Shown: positions 9,316-36,832 of the stretch, piece by piece
Position numbering within the stretch: the first letter of the stretch is position 1
How the letters are laid out: every line of letters begins with the position of its first letter
Assembly: GCA_026692845.1 (NCBI GenBank)
Contig: JAPLNM010000146.1
Location: 1 to 39,057, forward strand
Source of the DNA: Planctomycetota bacterium
GTDB taxonomy: Bacteria > Planctomycetota > Planctomycetia > Pirellulales > Pirellulaceae
Length of the DNA stretch: 39,057 bases
Reading direction: 5' to 3'
Translations under genes and position numbers: made by a program
The notes under the pieces: model-generated
What the model saw: only the letters and a program-made list of their open reading frames with translations
Told to the model about the DNA's origin: nothing
Databases searched by the model: none

Positions 9316-9546
9316 AAACAGCCGGATCTCTGCGGGAGATCCACTACCTTTGCGCCCTTGCGTTCTCTTTTTCCAAACAGCCGGATCTCTGCGGGAGATC
9401 CACTACCTTTGCGCCTTTGCGTTCTTTTTTCCAAACAGCCGGATCTCTGCGGGAGATCCACTACCTTTGCGTCTTTGCGCCCTTGCGTCTTTGCGTTCTC
9501 TTTTTCCAAACAGCCGGATCTCTGCGGGAGATCCACTACCTTTGCG
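9316..9546. repeat. Four direct repeats with GGATCTC/GAGATCC hairpin and TTTGCG spacer
   Basis: Units start with AAACAGCCGGATCTC at 9316, 9375, 9433 and 9508, so spacings are 59, 58 and 75 bp. Each carries the perfect stem GGATCTC (loop TGCGG) GAGATCC at 9324-9342, 9383-9401, 9441-9459 and 9516-9534, followed by CACTACC and a slippage-prone TTTGCG/CTTGCG run. The longer third spacer comes from extra TTTGCGYC units. This resembles the dispersed TTTGCG-type repeat of planctomycetes and cyanobacteria that is often mis-annotated as a short protein. It sits just after the stop of the minus-strand WD40 gene, so it may help terminate that operon. Confidence 0.85.
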
Positions 9547-9560
9547 ATGGATTCTTCTAT

Positions 9561-12047
9561 TTATTTCTTGTAGGACTCTTCAAAGAGTTTCTGCTGAGAG
9601 GAGACTCCACCGAGCTCGGCCTGAGCTTGCTGAAGCCTTGTCATCACCGCATCGAGCGCTTGCTGCTGCGGTGCCATCTCCTTGACCAAGTTGTTCTTAG
9701 CTTCCTGAGTGGCGACCATCATCGCCTGTAGCTCGGCCAACTGCTTCTCGAGTTGAGCGATCGCCGCTTGCGTCTGATCCATCTTGGACTTAACTGCCGT
9801 CAGATTGTTCTGGATCGGCTGGGCCTCGGCATTGACCTGCGCGATGGCTTGTTCAATGGCGGTCTTCTTAACCGCGAATTCATTCGCCAACCCGTTGAAG
9901 CGAACGAGTTCTTGCTCGAGCGTTGCGATCTCTGCAGCTAACCCATTGGCCGCTGCGTTGGCTCCATCGGCCTTGGCTTGGGCAGCAACCTGCTTGTCGG
10001 TTGCCACCTTCAACTCGGCGACCAATTCCTCCATGCGCTTGTCGGCCGCAGCTTTGGTCGTGATCAGCTCGGCAAGCTTCGTCATCGCATCGGCATATTC
10101 TTTGCTCTTGGCCGCGTTGGCTACGGAAAGCTCGGCGATCTCTTTGTCCTTTTGTGCTTTCTCCGCATTGAGTGCATTGAGCTCATTGGTGAATTGAGTC
10201 ACTACAGCCGCCTTGGCCTCAACGGCTTTGCCAGCTTCGGCGATCTGAGCGTCGAGGGCCGCAGGATCAGGGACTTGGCTCTCCTTCTGCTTTTGCAAGC
10301 CCACCAGGGCATCATCGGTCTGCTTCTTTTCCGCAGCGGTTTGTGTGACTTGAGCCGTTTTGGCGGCGATCCCCTCTGCGGTCTTGGCAACCTCGGCTTG
10401 CTTGGCCGCGATTTGAGTTGCGTAAGTATCGACCATGACCTTCAATTGGTTCGATCCATTGGTCAACTCGGTGATCTGTGCGACATAAGTAGCAATCAGG
10501 CTCTGATGATCGGTGTTGGCCTTTTGGACCGCCGCAGTTTGGGCCGCTTGTTGCGTCAGTTCCGCCGCCGCTGCTTGGGCTCCTGCAGCCAATGGAACAT
10601 GGCGCTCTTTGTTCGAAGCGACCGACATCTCCAGAGTGATCGGGTTGGCTGCCAGTCGCTTCTCGTCCTTCGGGTCGGCACGCAACCATACGCGCACGTT
10701 ACCTAACCAATCCCCGGAAACCACGTGCTTTGAATCGACGGTGATGGCGACCTCTTGGCCGGCCTCGTCCAAGGCAGGCATCTCGCCGGCAGCATTACCG
10801 GCCGCATCCCAGATCTTGACCTTGCGATCCTTGCCCGTCGAGACCATCACACCATCGTTGGCAATGGCGATCGCAGCAGCTCCACCCGGATGCGCATCCC
10901 AGGACTTCAAGAGCTTGCTCTCGTTCATATCCCACATCTTGAGCGTCCCGTCGAGCGAGGCGCTGACGACAGCCCCAGAATCGGGCCTCCAGGCCAAAGA
11001 GCGAATCTCGTTCTTGTGGGCTTGCAAGTCCGCGTACATCTTGCCCGTCGACGATTCCCAAATCACCAGACCCGCGGCGCGGTCGGCCGTGGCCAACAAT
11101 AAGCCATCAGGACTGAATCGCACCGCGTAGATCCAATCGGTGTGTTTCTTCTGCTCCCACTTGAGCTCACCGGTGAGCGTATCGTACACTCGCACCATCT
11201 TTTGTGGACCTGCAAGAGCGATCAGGCGGTTGTCGTCGCTGATATCGGCAGCCATCACAATATCCAACTCATCGCCAACCTTGGCGATCCGATTCCCCGT
11301 CGAAAGTTCGCACAAAACGGCAAAGCCGTCGACGCTGTGACGACCGCCACCGATCAAAATCAATTTGCCGTCGCGCGAGAAGGTGATCGACTGCGGCTCT
11401 CCCTCTGGGAACGGCAAAATACCGAGCAGTTGGCCTGTGATCGAATGGTACAAGGCCACCTGCCGTTGCCCGCCGACGGCGATCAAGGGTGACCAAGGTG
11501 CGGCGCCTAGGGCCGAGATCGAAGAGGCTTTGGCAGTGTACAGTGGTGTCTGCTTCAAGACCGTCGATGGCATCGGGGGTGGGCCCTCGGGCCTACCGGC
11601 TGCCGCCACGCTGATCGCGGCAGCACTTGCCATCGGTTTTCGAATCGCCGAGCCACTGTTCTCAGGCATTCCTTGCTCGATCCAGGTCTTGAGAAGATCG
11701 ATCTTCGCCTGCGCGATCTTGTCCTGCATCGGGGGCATCGTCGGCTGCTCTTTGTGGGCAGTTAAAGCATAAAGTCTCGACGAATCCAGATCTCCGGAAA
11801 CCAAAACCTCTCCGCTGCTGCCCCCGGCCATGGTCGCTTGGAAGTTCTCGAGGGACAACCCGCCCTTTTTGGCGTTGTTGTTATGGCAAGAAGAACAGTG
11901 CTCTCGAAAGATGGGCTTGATGTGGTCTTCATAAGTGATCTTCGCTGGCTCTTGGGCCCAAAGCGAGGAAGCACAAGCCACTGCCAAGACGGGAGCCAAA
12001 GCACGGCTAGCCACGGCGGTCATAAACTTATTCGTGTCGATGCGCAT
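9561..12047 (-). CDS. Planctomycete cytochrome c domain / WD40 / coiled-coil protein
   Basis: An 828-residue exported protein. After a signal peptide (cleavage near AWAQ, residue 32) comes a planctomycete type 1 cytochrome c domain with CSSCH at 51-55, a GLSLENF segment and PTMPP, where a Met ligand may lie. Residues about 165-480 form a WD40 propeller (VRFSPDGLLLATADRAAGLVIWE, SLDGTLKMWD). From about 485 to the end is a long Ala/Gln/Lys-rich coiled coil with no Pro over long runs. The combination suggests a heme protein carried on a propeller and a rod that could reach across the periplasm. It is the last gene of the four-gene operon, 27 bp after the DUF1549/1553 gene. Its biochemical role is not known. 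Confidence 0.9.
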   Translation of the reverse strand: MRIDTNKFMTAVASRALAPVLAVACASSLWAQEPAKITYEDHIKPIFREHCSSCHNNNAKKGGLSLENFQATMAGGSSGEVLVSGDLDSSRLYALTAHKEQPTMPPMQDKIAQAKIDLLKTWIEQGMPENSGSAIRKPMASAAAISVAAAGRPEGPPPMPSTVLKQTPLYTAKASSISALGAAPWSPLIAVGGQRQVALYHSITGQLLGILPFPEGEPQSITFSRDGKLILIGGGRHSVDGFAVLCELSTGNRIAKVGDELDIVMAADISDDNRLIALAGPQKMVRVYDTLTGELKWEQKKHTDWIYAVRFSPDGLLLATADRAAGLVIWESSTGKMYADLQAHKNEIRSLAWRPDSGAVVSASLDGTLKMWDMNESKLLKSWDAHPGGAAAIAIANDGVMVSTGKDRKVKIWDAAGNAAGEMPALDEAGQEVAITVDSKHVVSGDWLGNVRVWLRADPKDEKRLAANPITLEMSVASNKERHVPLAAGAQAAAAELTQQAAQTAAVQKANTDHQSLIATYVAQITELTNGSNQLKVMVDTYATQIAAKQAEVAKTAEGIAAKTAQVTQTAAEKKQTDDALVGLQKQKESQVPDPAALDAQIAEAGKAVEAKAAVVTQFTNELNALNAEKAQKDKEIAELSVANAAKSKEYADAMTKLAELITTKAAADKRMEELVAELKVATDKQVAAQAKADGANAAANGLAAEIATLEQELVRFNGLANEFAVKKTAIEQAIAQVNAEAQPIQNNLTAVKSKMDQTQAAIAQLEKQLAELQAMMVATQEAKNNLVKEMAPQQQALDAVMTRLQQAQAELGGVSSQQKLFEESYKK

Positions 12048-33522: not shown

Positions 33523-34347
33523 ATGCCCACAGATCCAAAGCCCGCCTCTCGAATCGATTCCCCCTGCGACTGGCATTCAATCGCCCCCTGGATGACTTGC
33601 TCGCTGATCCTTTGCTCGCTGGCCATGGTCATGCTGCCTGCCTGGACCTTCGCCCAATCCGACGAAGAGTTGCCCAAACCCATCCTCAAACCGAACCAAC
33701 TCGGAATCACCCAGTCGATCCAAAAGTCCAAACTCCCTATCGATCTGCCTATCGACCGCGAAATCTGTGTAAAGAAATCCAAAGGCCGATTCACCTTGAA
33801 CCTGGACAAAGCGTTCGAATGCAATCTCCAGATCCTCCCGGCCAAGACCCTCGAACTCGTCGGGCAGTCCCAAGGCCAATGGCGAATCAAGTCCGAAAAC
33901 CTCGACGCCGAAATCATCCTTACGGTTCAAAGCGAACCCGCCTTGGACTGGCACGTCTCCTGCGCCGTGCAGATCCCCTCGGAAACCGATGGTCCCCTGG
34001 TTGCCCTCGGACCCGATGACCCCGAATCGGTTCTTCGACGTCTAAACGCCTACGACCACTGGCTAAAAAACACCGTCGATCGATGGAATTTTTCATCGGC
34101 AAGTTCCCCCAAGCTCACCCGCCCTAGCAGCTCTACACGCCCAAGAAACGCTATCCGCCCGAACACCGAGCAAACGGCCAGATCGTATGCGGCTAGTTCG
34201 TATGCGGCTCGCTCGTATGGAGCTCGGCAAAAGGAAACCCAACGCTCGGTGGAACGATGGACTCAAATCGAACAACTCGCCTCGCAAATTTTCAACGCGG
34301 CTCATGTCCAGTGCGAACTGATCCCCGCGCCGATCGATGGCCCCTAA
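33523..34347 (+). CDS. Secreted protein of unknown function with SYAAR repeats
   Basis: I do not recognise a family. About 274 residues from the ATG at 33523; a GTG at 33466 would add 19 residues. The signal-like helix MTCSLILCSLAMVMLPAWTF ends near AQS. The mature part is beta-rich to about residue 190, then Ser/Arg-rich and repetitive (SYAASSYAARSYGAR), ending in a helix. Three 15-bp units cause the repeat. It lies upstream of the riboswitch in the same direction, but the riboswitch has its own promoter, so the two need not be linked. Confidence 0.7.
   Translation: MPTDPKPASRIDSPCDWHSIAPWMTCSLILCSLAMVMLPAWTFAQSDEELPKPILKPNQLGITQSIQKSKLPIDLPIDREICVKKSKGRFTLNLDKAFECNLQILPAKTLELVGQSQGQWRIKSENLDAEIILTVQSEPALDWHVSCAVQIPSETDGPLVALGPDDPESVLRRLNAYDHWLKNTVDRWNFSSASSPKLTRPSSSTRPRNAIRPNTEQTARSYAASSYAARSYGARQKETQRSVERWTQIEQLASQIFNAAHVQCELIPAPIDGP
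34183..34227 (+). repeat. In-frame 15-bp tandem repeat (three units)
   Basis: TCGTATGCGGCTAGT, TCGTATGCGGCTCGC and TCGTATGGAGCTCGG are adjacent units that encode the SYAAS/SYAAR/SYGAR pentapeptides of the secreted protein. Confidence 0.85.
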
Positions 34348-34365: not shown

Positions 34366-34393
34366 TTGACTATCGATTGGTTTTGAGTAAACT
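34366..34393 (+). promoter_or_regulatory. Probable sigma-70 promoter of the riboswitch transcript
   Basis: TTGACT (34366-34371) and TAAACT (34388-34393) are separated by 16 bases and match the -35 and -10 consensus at 5/6 and 4/6. Initiation near 34400 would leave about 40 bases before the aptamer. It follows the stop of the secreted protein by only 18 bases. Confidence 0.45.
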
Positions 34394-34437
34394 TATGGCA
34401 CTCCTTTGCGATTCGTTAAGAATGCTTTGGAGTAAAG

Positions 34438-34695
34438 CGCATGGTGACCTTCGAGCTTCAAAACTCCTAGGGCAACAGGGAACTCCGGTGCAATTCCGGG
34501 ACGGTCCGGCCGCTGTAAGTCGTCGCTGCGAACCCTTAAAGGTTCCCAGCAACGCATCCTCCTTCTGTTGATTTCATTCAAATTGAAGCGTGCCATTGGC
34601 ATCGACCGCATCTTGCAATAGCGAGCAATGCGGATCGATCGGCTGAGAAGGCAGTGAGGGTGTGGGAGACGGCAAGTCAGAAGACCTACCATGCG
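34438..34695 (+). promoter_or_regulatory. Cobalamin (AdoCbl-type) riboswitch aptamer
   Basis: The closing helix P1 is perfect over 8 bp: CGCATGGT (34438-34445) with ACCATGCG (34688-34695). The core reads AGGGAACTCCGGTGCAATTC from 34477, followed by CGGG, GGTCC and GGCCGCTGTAAG, the hallmark P3-P5 region of B12 riboswitches. The 3' B12 box AGTCAGAAGACCTACC lies at 34675-34690. Between them is a longer than usual variable region, with ATCGA-CCGCA (34601-34610) pairing to TGCGG-A-TCGAT (34629-34639). Aptamer length of about 258 is slightly large for the class because of that insert. Family knowledge: binding of adenosylcobalamin normally represses the downstream gene. Confidence 0.95.
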
Positions 34696-34752
34696 AAATC
34701 GTAGCCTAGTGCCTCCCGAGTCTGAGGCCGTTGCGGTGCCCATCCCTATCCC

Positions 34753-34794
34753 GGCTCCTTCGTGTCGATCATGACGAGGGTGCCTTTTGCTTTT
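34753..34794 (+). terminator. Rho-independent terminator of the riboswitch expression platform
   Basis: Stem GGC-T-CCTTCGT (34753-34763) pairs with ACGAGGG-T-GCC (34774-34784), with one T/T mismatch, one G/T pair and a 10-base loop. TTTTGCTTTT (34785-34794) follows. It ends 18 bases before the next ATG. The stretch GGAG-A-CGG (34665-34672) inside the aptamer can pair with CCG-G-CTCC (34751-34758). That would form an antiterminator when no ligand is bound, which is an inference. Confidence 0.75.
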
Positions 34795-34812
34795 CCATAG
34801 AAGGGTATTGCC

Positions 34813-35670
34813 ATGCTTTTGGCTAAGATCTTGCGCGCACTTCGCATCGCGTCCTGCACGCTGCTGACGATCGCTGCAATGGGTTCGATAGGCCGTTCGG
34901 ATATTGTCGGTTTCGAGGACAACACTCGCTATTCCCAAGGATCCAACGGCCAGTTCTACAACGGGGACTTGGGAAACAACACCACCAACACCCAAGGTTG
35001 GTCCAGCAACGGTGTCCACTTCTCAAACTCCTACACCTTCGATACCCAGCTCAACTACGGCTACTGGACAGGATCCTCCTACTCGCGTGTCAACGCGGGG
35101 AACCTTGCGGGATTCGAAAACCAGTATGCCGCAAAACCTGGGATCGGGAGCGATGGCTCGGCGCATTATGCAGTCGTCTACAACTCCTTCTCGGGCGATG
35201 CGGTCGTGACCTTTGGAGCCCAAGTCCAACTCTCCTCGATCGACGTCTCGAACACGGCTTACACTTACTTTTCCATGCGAGACGGGGACCCGTTCGCAAA
35301 GAAATTCGGCGGTGATAGCGGTAACGAAAAAGACTTTTACAAACTCGAAATCCAAGGATTCCGAGGAACCGCCGCAACCGGCTCGGTCGATTTCTTTCTG
35401 GCTGACTATCGGTTCGACAACAATTCCCAAGACTACCTCGTCGATCAATGGACGCGCGTGAACCTATCGAGCCTCGGGCCAGTCGACTCGCTCCAGTTTG
35501 CTTTGAGCTCGAGCGATGTCGGGCAATTCGGCATGAACACGCCTGCCTACTTCGCCATGGATCGCATCGAATTCTCTGCGGTACCCGAACCTAGCAGCAT
35601 CGCGCTGCTGGGCTCTGCGGGAGCCGCAGCGTGGCTCCGAAGAAGATGGAAACGCAGATCGGCTCGCTAA
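34813..35670 (+). CDS. DUF4465 secreted protein with PEP-CTERM sorting tail, B12-riboswitch controlled
   Basis: A 285-residue protein. Signal peptide to about residue 28, then a DUF4465 domain: GFEDNTRYSQGSNG, FSNSYTFDTQLNYGYWTGSS, AYTYFSMRDGDPFAKKFGGD, SVDFFLADYRFDNNSQDYL and GQFGMNTPAYFAMDRI. These fit the family pattern as I remember it. Residues 257-285 are a PEP-CTERM signal (VPEPSS, a short hydrophobic segment, RRRWKRR), expected to lead to exosortase processing and retention at the cell surface. AGAAGGG precedes the ATG by 7 bases. It is the only gene behind the cobalamin riboswitch, so it should rise when B12 is scarce. A role in binding cobalamin at the surface is inference. No TonB receptor or btu gene is adjacent. 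Confidence 0.88.
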   Translation: MLLAKILRALRIASCTLLTIAAMGSIGRSDIVGFEDNTRYSQGSNGQFYNGDLGNNTTNTQGWSSNGVHFSNSYTFDTQLNYGYWTGSSYSRVNAGNLAGFENQYAAKPGIGSDGSAHYAVVYNSFSGDAVVTFGAQVQLSSIDVSNTAYTYFSMRDGDPFAKKFGGDSGNEKDFYKLEIQGFRGTAATGSVDFFLADYRFDNNSQDYLVDQWTRVNLSSLGPVDSLQFALSSSDVGQFGMNTPAYFAMDRIEFSAVPEPSSIALLGSAGAAAWLRRRWKRRSAR

Positions 35671-35683
35671 GGATCCGTCGATC

Positions 35684-36832
35684 TCAAAGCATCCTGCGGG
35701 CTGCGATGACCCGACCGGCCTCAGCAAGTGCCGCGACCAAAGATCCCTGGTCGGTCTGATGACTCCAAGACAATCGGACCGCACCGCTGAGTTGCGGCTC
35801 GCAAAGCCCCATGGCCGATAACACGTGGCTTGCTGTCGCACATACGCTCGTGCAAGCCGCCCCGTCGGAGATCGAAATCGACTCGCGCACCGATTCGAGT
35901 AGATCGTCGGCATCCCATCCTGGAAACGAAACGTTCAGTACATGCGGCATGCGGTACTGGGGGCTGCCGTGAATCTGACCTCCATGGGACTCTGCCCAGT
36001 CGATCACGATCCTGCCGATGCGCTCGCAAGCCTCCTTGCGAACCGCGTGCTCCTGAAGTGCCAACTCGGCGGCTAGCCCAAGTCCAACAATCAACGGAAC
36101 AGCCAGCGTCCCGGATCGAAGCCCCAATTCCTGACCTCCGCCAACAAAGACCGGTTCGAGGACCGGCCCATCCTTGCGCTGTCGCCTGACGATCAATGCT
36201 CCAATCCCCTGAGGCCCGAAAATCTTATGACCGCTGATGCTTATCGAAGCAATTCCCGGATGTGCAAGCGGTTCGAGGTCCCGACCGAATCCTTGGGCCG
36301 CGTCGACATGCAACCAAACCCCTCGGTCCTCGGCCGCTCGTGCCACTTGGGAAATCGGCTGAATGACCCCTGTCTCATTGTTCGCATGCATCAAACTCAC
36401 AAGCAACGTGTCGGTACGGATCGAATCGATCAAATCCGCACTGCGAATGCGACCATCGCCCTGCGGCTCGACATGCGTTACTTCAAATCCCCACGACCGC
36501 ATCCGTTCAAGCGGTTCGAGCACCGCCTTGTGCTCAATCGCCGAACTGACGATATGAAGCTTGCCCGACGCGAGTCCGTATTGGGCAAGTCCAAGGATCG
36601 CAAGGTTGTTGCTCTCGGTCGCCCCACTGGTGAAAAAGACTTCATTCCGTTTGGCTCCAACCACCCGACCAATCCGATCGCGAGCCCCATGCACCGCATC
36701 TTTGGCGTTGTGCCCATGGACATGCGGACTCCCCGCATTGCCTGGCAACAAGCGATAGGCATCGAGCATCGCTTGCAAGACCCTCGGATCGATCGGATTC
36801 GATGCATTGCAATCGAGATAGACTGGGCTCAT
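35684..36832 (-). CDS. Cysteine desulfurase, DndA-like
   Basis: A 382-residue PLP enzyme that takes sulfur from cysteine as a protein persulfide. Seen: LDCNASNPIDP, SGATESNNLAILGL, IEHKAVLEPLE (His101), MHANNETGVIQP, the PLP lysine in SGHKIFGPQG (Lys203) and the active-site loop SDGAACTSVCATASHVL (Cys327, with a second Cys331). GGGQELGLRSGTLAVPLIVG and the overall wording resemble the DndA branch of IscS-type enzymes more than housekeeping IscS or SufS. No dndBCDE, iscU or thiI gene is in the window. Its ATG overlaps the TGA of the cyclase gene (ATGA), so it is translationally coupled to terpenoid-type genes. The sulfur acceptor is unknown. Confidence 0.88.
   Translation of the reverse strand: MSPVYLDCNASNPIDPRVLQAMLDAYRLLPGNAGSPHVHGHNAKDAVHGARDRIGRVVGAKRNEVFFTSGATESNNLAILGLAQYGLASGKLHIVSSAIEHKAVLEPLERMRSWGFEVTHVEPQGDGRIRSADLIDSIRTDTLLVSLMHANNETGVIQPISQVARAAEDRGVWLHVDAAQGFGRDLEPLAHPGIASISISGHKIFGPQGIGALIVRRQRKDGPVLEPVFVGGGQELGLRSGTLAVPLIVGLGLAAELALQEHAVRKEACERIGRIVIDWAESHGGQIHGSPQYRMPHVLNVSFPGWDADDLLESVRESISISDGAACTSVCATASHVLSAMGLCEPQLSGAVRLSWSHQTDQGSLVAALAEAGRVIAARRML

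Follow-up and report, generated by a model that had tools for sequence, protein, structure and literature searches.

The window, a stretch of 39,057 nucleotides, belongs to the draft genome of a Pirellula-like planctomycete, which comprises 5.24 Mb, is distributed over 182 contigs, and is 96.2% complete. Toward its end lies a gene for a secreted DUF4465 protein, preceded on the same strand by a candidate promoter, a cobalamin riboswitch, and hairpins in the leader; the features of this unit, along with those of related loci, are provided in Table 1. The gap between the end of the aptamer and the start of the gene measures 105 nt. The preceding open reading frame (ORF) stops at 34347, upstream of the candidate promoter, and the downstream neighbor (35684-36832; PF00266, cysteine-desulfurase-like) is convergent to the DUF4465 gene. 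Judged from this arrangement, the unit thus appears to be monocistronic and looks like a single-gene transcript. RF00174 and DUF4465 each had one match in this 96.2% complete draft, namely, those of the window. A squalene-hopene-cyclase-like gene (PF13243; 36829-38937, minus strand) is found beside the cysteine-desulfurase-like gene and is also convergent to the DUF4465 gene.

Table 1. Features of the riboswitch-DUF4465 unit in the window and of related planctomycete loci (L numbers)
Feature	Position	Strand	Basis
Promoter TTGACT-16-TAAACT (candidate)	34366-34393	+	consensus scan
Cobalamin riboswitch aptamer, RF00174	34425-34707	+	cmscan, 64.8 bits, E 6e-14, full model 1-189
Hairpin just after P1, where a regulatory P13 stem would lie	34698-34737	+	covariation, 8 leaders
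Terminator-like hairpin with T-rich tail	34753-34794 (hairpin 34753-34784)	+	-14.8 kcal/mol
Ribosome-binding site GAAGGG (34800-34805), can pair with CUUUUC (34790-34795)	34790-34805	+	by eye; RNAfold of leader
Gene for secreted DUF4465 (BtuJ-family) protein with PEP-CTERM tail, 285 aa	34813-35670	+	ORF and Pfam
Putative signal peptide, probable cleavage before D30	34813-34899	+	by eye from alignment
DUF4465 domain, residues 81-252	35053-35568	+	PF14717, 168.8 bits (gathering score 25)
Y150, counterpart of BtuJ1 Y146, DE-loop B12 contact	35260-35262	+	alignment to 9FCT, numbered by hand
MNTPAYF, HI-loop B12-binding motif (N242, T243, Y246)	35533-35553	+	alignment; BtuJ1 N241/T242/Y245
PEP-CTERM tail: VPEP, hydrophobic segment, basic end	35578-35667	+	PF07589, TIGR02595
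Riboswitch-linked prepilin-type genes	L093 487-1380; L034 401-1336; L091 502-1368	-	riboswitch loci
Other riboswitch-prepilin loci	L026, L028, L032, L036, L039, L047, L048, L049		
X genes	L051 6567-7472; L057 6993-8030; L059 784-2055; L060 8581-9756	+	
X genes	L056 6200-7327; L086 305-1312	-	
Order DUF4465, X, prepilin, then periplasmic-binding-protein, ABC, FecCD genes (BtuF/D/C-like)	L056		
Order X, DUF4465, prepilin	L057		
Order DUF4465, X, prepilin	L060		
Order prepilin, X, DUF4465	L051		
Order prepilin, DUF4465, BtuR/CobO	L052		
Order DUF4465, DUF1559 prepilin	L050		
Order DUF4465, X	L059		

Pfam assigned only DUF4465 and PEP-CTERM to the window protein. The PF07589 match covers residues 256 to 278 (24.2 bits; cutoff, 20.7), and TIGR02595 also matched the tail (25.2 bits; cutoff, 16). 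The initial annotation, made from the sequence alone, had described a secreted DUF4465 protein with an exosortase-type tail and had proposed a HMMER search with both models; both scored above their cutoffs, no different family was found, and PF14717, PF07589, and TIGR02595 support the description. By eye, an A-x-A motif precedes D or E in the relatives L016 and L017, and a similar one is seen in L019. Lipobox-like tetrapeptides are present in 3 of the 18 planctomycete DUF4465 proteins, namely, IASC in the window protein, VTSC in L015, and LIGC in L017, with a spacing of 3, 6, and 5 residues, respectively, after the last K/R. In the window protein, IASC occupies residues 12 to 15, and its Cys is only 3 residues from R11; the same N-terminal column holds Cys in five of seven close sequences and another residue in L014 and L018. 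On these sequence features, lipidation of the window protein looks unlikely.

The predicted structures were of low confidence (pLDDT of 33.6 for the full protein with 7 rows and 32.7 for the mature domain with 6 rows), and a jellyroll fold is predicted from the strong sequence homology to solved folds. Among the PDB sequences, matches were obtained to D5EK51 of Coraliomargarita akajimensis (9HMU; 6.1e-32), which is the closest solved homologue, 9QPM/9QPN (2e-19), BtuJ1 (9FCT; 6.4e-19), and BtuJ2 (9I2L; 3.5e-9), as well as to 4JQR and 4E9K, which are labeled only "hypothetical protein." Another homologue, "Pan," comes from Mucisphaera calidilacus, which we take to be a planctomycete. DUF4465 (IPR027828) corresponds to the BtuJ family, shown in 2025 and 2026 to bind B12 tightly (PMC12751083, PMC13398666); BtuJ1 has a reported Kd of 0.16 nM (PMC12751083), and B12 binding was reported for eight divergent DUF4465 members, including "Pan" (PMC13398666). 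In its accessible part, the main text of the latter article makes no mention of PEP-CTERM, exosortase, or Planctomyc, and its discussion of riboswitches concerns gut species and Bacteroides thetaiotaomicron. The residues named as B12 binding in BtuJ1 are Y146, N241, T242, Y245, and Y97 (PMC12751083). Four of these five are identical in the window protein (Y150, N242, T243, and Y246, in the same order), and Y97 is replaced by F101; across the 18 DUF4465 sequences, Y246 is invariant and Y150 nearly so. By its sequence, the window protein is thus a member of the BtuJ/DUF4465 family, with a PEP-CTERM tail and predicted riboswitch control.

BtuJ1 and BtuJ2 of B. thetaiotaomicron share with the window protein the Pfam domain, the MNTP[SA]Y loop, and the DE-loop Tyr, and their loci are likewise controlled by cobalamin riboswitches and encode exported products. 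However, both are lipoproteins encoded in multigene operons with BtuB, BtuG, BtuC, BtuD, or BtuF genes (PMC12751083), whereas the window unit comprises one gene, its product has a PEP-CTERM tail, and no TonB plug was detected in the draft genome. The initial annotation had left it undecided whether DUF4465 and BtuH are the same fold; DUF4465 is BtuJ and not BtuH. Like the window protein in the proposed reading, BtuH of B. thetaiotaomicron is a riboswitch-controlled surface B12 binder, but BtuH2 has a different architecture, consisting of Ig-like PKD domains and another C-terminal domain, and the accessible part of its description does not use the term "DUF" (PMC8941943). The identification as BtuH was rejected on the grounds that Pfam returned only DUF4465 and PEP-CTERM, that no PDB match was named BtuH, and that the description of BtuH sets it apart.

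The aptamer score is well above the RF00174 gathering score of 31.5 bits. In the proposed check of the leader with the Rfam cobalamin model, the full-length match thus confirmed the claim of a complete B12 aptamer. The initial annotation also described a perfect P1. This is true only of the inner helix, in which all eight pairs, read by eye from the alignment, are Watson-Crick, whereas cmscan flagged 3 of the 4 outer pairs as nonstandard. The claimed promoter is at chance level when taken alone (one found in the consensus scan versus 0.5 expected), but the pattern TTGAC and TA...T, defined post hoc after inspection of the alignment, recurs with a spacing of 16 nt in 8 loci (the window, L014 to L019, and L050) of the 10 that were checked from a set of 18; of the exceptions, L055 has a spacing of 18 and L053 lacks the pattern. 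The distance from this pattern to the aptamer varies among the loci that have it.

Two hairpins in the leader are candidates for the switching element. For the hairpin directly after P1, 96.2% of the cells were paired (13 pairs in 8 leaders), 7 of the 13 pairs had changed on both sides, and none of 500 shuffles reached the observed pairing and covariation, figures that are flattered by the relatedness of the leaders and by the derivation of the structure from one of them. When the partners were slid by -3 to +2 columns, 24 to 45% of the cells were paired, with 71.1% at +3. This hairpin may act as a P13-like regulatory stem, although in the window it lies 62 nt upstream of the ribosome-binding site. 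The claimed terminator does exist as a hairpin with a T-rich tail, but it is not conserved: four of the six relatives' leaders have no counterpart, and those in L015 (-7.5) and L019 (-11.0) are poorer. A simple terminator scan did not list it either, reporting one site only, on the other strand. The label "terminator" is thus weak, and termination as a conserved control mechanism was rejected, since no good counterpart is kept in the relatives.

The initial annotation had proposed a search for conserved riboswitch-DUF4465 pairs in other planctomycetes, and such pairs proved to be the rule. RF00174 was found upstream and on the same strand in 17 of 18 planctomycete DUF4465 genes (the window, 6 relatives, and 11 others); the 18th, L059, starts at the end of its contig, and its upstream region cannot be judged. 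In the six Pirellula-type relatives (Pirellula sp., Planctomycetota bacterium, or Planctomycetaceae bacterium; best-segment identity of 63 to 88%), the riboswitch is always present and ends 62 to 236 nt before the aligned start codon. The other planctomycetes have it in 10 of 11 cases, the 11th being the gene at the contig end, and one or two ORFs separate riboswitch and DUF4465 gene in L051, L052, and L057. In a sample of 392 genomes of the phylum, DUF4465 occurred in 11 and RF00174 in 337. One might argue that the neighborhood arose by chance, the riboswitch serving another purpose or the protein binding another ligand, given that B12 binding of the window protein is predicted from its sequence. 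The conservation of the pair, the retention of the pocket residues, and the B12 binding of eight family members (PMC13398666) make this highly improbable. The initial annotation was thus right in linking this exported protein to B12, as judged from the conserved pair and the B12 binding of DUF4465 relatives.

The tail is also widespread: PF07589 matched 15 of the 18 DUF4465 proteins (3 were without a match), and a VPEP-type motif near the C terminus is present in 16, the exceptions being L058 and L060. We identified three matches to the exosortase model PF09721 in the genome of the window (best, 6.1e-58). Exosortases were present in all 11 genomes with DUF4465 versus 1 of 7 same-family genomes without it (Fisher P = 0.0004, uncorrected for relatedness and with a DUF4465-lacking group drawn from one family). 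For the comparison with published counts, we assume that IPR013424 denotes PEP-CTERM. C-terminal extracellular targeting motifs have been reported for DUF4465 proteins, with IPR013424 in 88 and IPR026444 in 229 of 824 sequences (PMC12751083). Such sorting is thus not new, and the suggestion of a new version of such a system was largely pre-empted.

To place the unit in the B12 economy of the cell, we inspected the draft genome and those of relatives. The genome encodes MetH (1,233 aa; L109 2888-6589; PF02965, 407.8 bits), which also has PF02574, PF00809, and both B12-binding domains, as well as two more genes with B12-binding domains. No match was obtained in the 96.2% complete draft to MetE (PF01717), to CbiC (PF02570; absent from all 18 genomes searched), or to the TonB plug (PF07715), and no true BtuC was detected in a search confined to FecCD. 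The sole FecCD match (30.5 bits, above the Pfam cutoff) was rejected: the protein is an ABC-3 permease, scoring 143.3 bits with that family versus 39.4 bits with FecCD. A cell that has MetH but no match to MetE or CbiC would have to take in B12. This raises the question of how B12 is obtained when neither a TonB plug nor a true BtuC was detected.

Same-family relatives offer a comparison. In seven of eight (G121, G205, G327, G333, G339, G353, and G381), RF00174 ends 267 to 365 nt upstream of a same-strand TonB plug domain; G333 has a riboswitch-DUF4465 pair in addition. The eighth, G274, has no match to plug or DUF4465, and a prepilin-type gene follows the sole riboswitch found. Judged from the riboswitch, the linked TonB receptors presumably carry B12. 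These BtuB-type receptors thus resemble the window protein in the riboswitch family before their genes but differ in being beta-barrels, of which the draft genome has no PF07715 match. In five of the plug-bearing relatives (G205, G327, G339, G353, and G381), the FecCD matches are also low (best, 44 to 50 bits, above the Pfam cutoff), so that the lack of a strong BtuC match is not special to the genome of the window. A plug gene is present in 7 of the 11 DUF4465 genomes and missing from G000, G357, G105, and G137. DUF4465 is therefore not simply a substitute for a TonB receptor; only some of the genomes that carry it are receptor-less. A riboswitch also precedes the MetE gene in G121 (C2 227075-227297) and G339 (C1 3372092-3372311), the order expected for B12 repression of the B12-independent enzyme.

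Taken together, we consider it likely that the riboswitch-DUF4465 locus serves to capture B12 by means of a single gene. Computation directly supports the riboswitch, the domain with its pocket residues, the tail, the exosortase, and the conservation of the pair. At low cellular B12, the riboswitch would leave the transcript active, assuming this direction of control. The BtuJ-type protein would then leave the cytoplasm through Sec, an exosortase would process its PEP-CTERM tail, and the product would probably be exposed on the cell surface or in the surface matrix. Its jellyroll loops may bind cobalamin tightly, by analogy to the relatives with published binding, and the captured B12 would be handed to a transporter. 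With ample B12, the occupied aptamer would switch the gene off, perhaps via the conserved hairpin after P1. This reading is supported by L056, in which DUF4465 belongs to the same gene run as periplasmic-binding-protein, ABC, and FecCD genes, and by L052, where it is located beside BtuR/CobO.

As no known receptor or inner-membrane transporter was found, the delivery step is missing from the capture reading, and two alternatives address this point. (i) The protein may be released as a matrix or vesicle sponge that hoards or shares B12 instead of feeding the producer cell. In B. thetaiotaomicron, extracellular vesicles are where BtuJ1 and BtuJ2 act (PMC12751083), and with neither TonB plug nor true BtuC detected in the draft genome, there is no known hand-over partner. 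However, the tail with its hydrophobic segment suggests anchoring, a B12 riboswitch as the control element is consistent with self-supply, and the gene run in L056 also argues against a sponge, which we consider improbable. (ii) The unit may be accessory to a complete B12 importer that is encoded at another site and went unrecognized, such as a permease of the ECF or BtuM type combined with a non-TonB outer membrane route; this would supplement rather than exclude capture. The implied entry of B12 and the low-scoring FecCD matches of the five plug-bearing relatives favor such an importer, whereas no such gene was identified in a genome search confined, among importer families, to FecCD and the TonB plug; we give it somewhat less than an even chance. 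The core reading as a capture unit is right but largely known, since its basic function is known from relatives. What is new is that the unit consists of one gene and lies in a genome in which no standard B12 uptake genes were detected: with the usual receptor gene not found in the draft, surface BtuJ may be one alternative capture route. Also new are the links from riboswitch to prepilin and from DUF4465 to a family termed X, described below.

Prepilin-type proteins, marked by N_methyl, DUF1559, and H-X9-DG, recur next to planctomycete cobalamin riboswitches. Of the 30 riboswitch loci with the best scores, 9 had the prepilin motif downstream and on the same strand; this set was selected by score, includes close relatives, and offers little downstream DNA in L042 (144 nt) and L045 (913 nt). 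The motif was absent from 42.8 kb upstream of the same 30 riboswitches (exact flanks) and from 99 kb comprising the window and L014 to L019. A profile of six riboswitch-linked prepilins had full-length matches in 7 of 18 genomes. Six of these are the sequences that make up the profile; the seventh, in G231 (3.4e-70), is new and directly follows the DUF4465 gene. The prepilin profile A3 had 37 matches in the genome of the window, a number that shows how common prepilins are; the best one (8.4e-26) is N-terminal only (model positions 6 to 69). The literature searched held no report of a link between cobalamin riboswitches and prepilin-type proteins.

X is a secreted family that is not covered by a dedicated Pfam model, although some members have dockerin or PEGA regions. 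In blastp, every pair among the six X proteins and the N-terminal part of the L058 protein gave a match (worst, 2.7e-27), which indicates that the L058 protein is a fusion of X and DUF4465; in it, X-like sequence starts at about residue 31, and DUF4465 covers residues 519 to 693. In G357, the X gene (L086) has a riboswitch of its own. Planctomycete riboswitches before TonB plug, DUF4465-PEP-CTERM, or prepilin-type genes point to alternative routes, at the envelope, for obtaining a vitamin that is scarce. A tentative and rather doubtful extension is that many planctomycetes take up B12 free of TonB receptors by riboswitch-controlled surface capture, in which PEP-CTERM-anchored BtuJ, X, and dedicated prepilin-type proteins, which might draw in B12 or display it at the envelope, would be interchangeable; the genome of the window would have kept BtuJ alone, controlled by its one riboswitch.

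In L055, divergent cobalamin riboswitches stand back to back (10596-10721, minus strand, and 10926-11130, plus strand), one facing a DUF1559 prepilin-type gene (9491-10540, minus strand) and the other a DUF4465-PEP-CTERM gene. L045 and L049 encode, from position 1944 of the reversed locus, another secreted protein after the cobalamin riboswitch (GPPGLDDIEFWVG..FVIDWNDG), which has a PEP motif close to its end. Right behind it in L049 lies a prepilin ORF.
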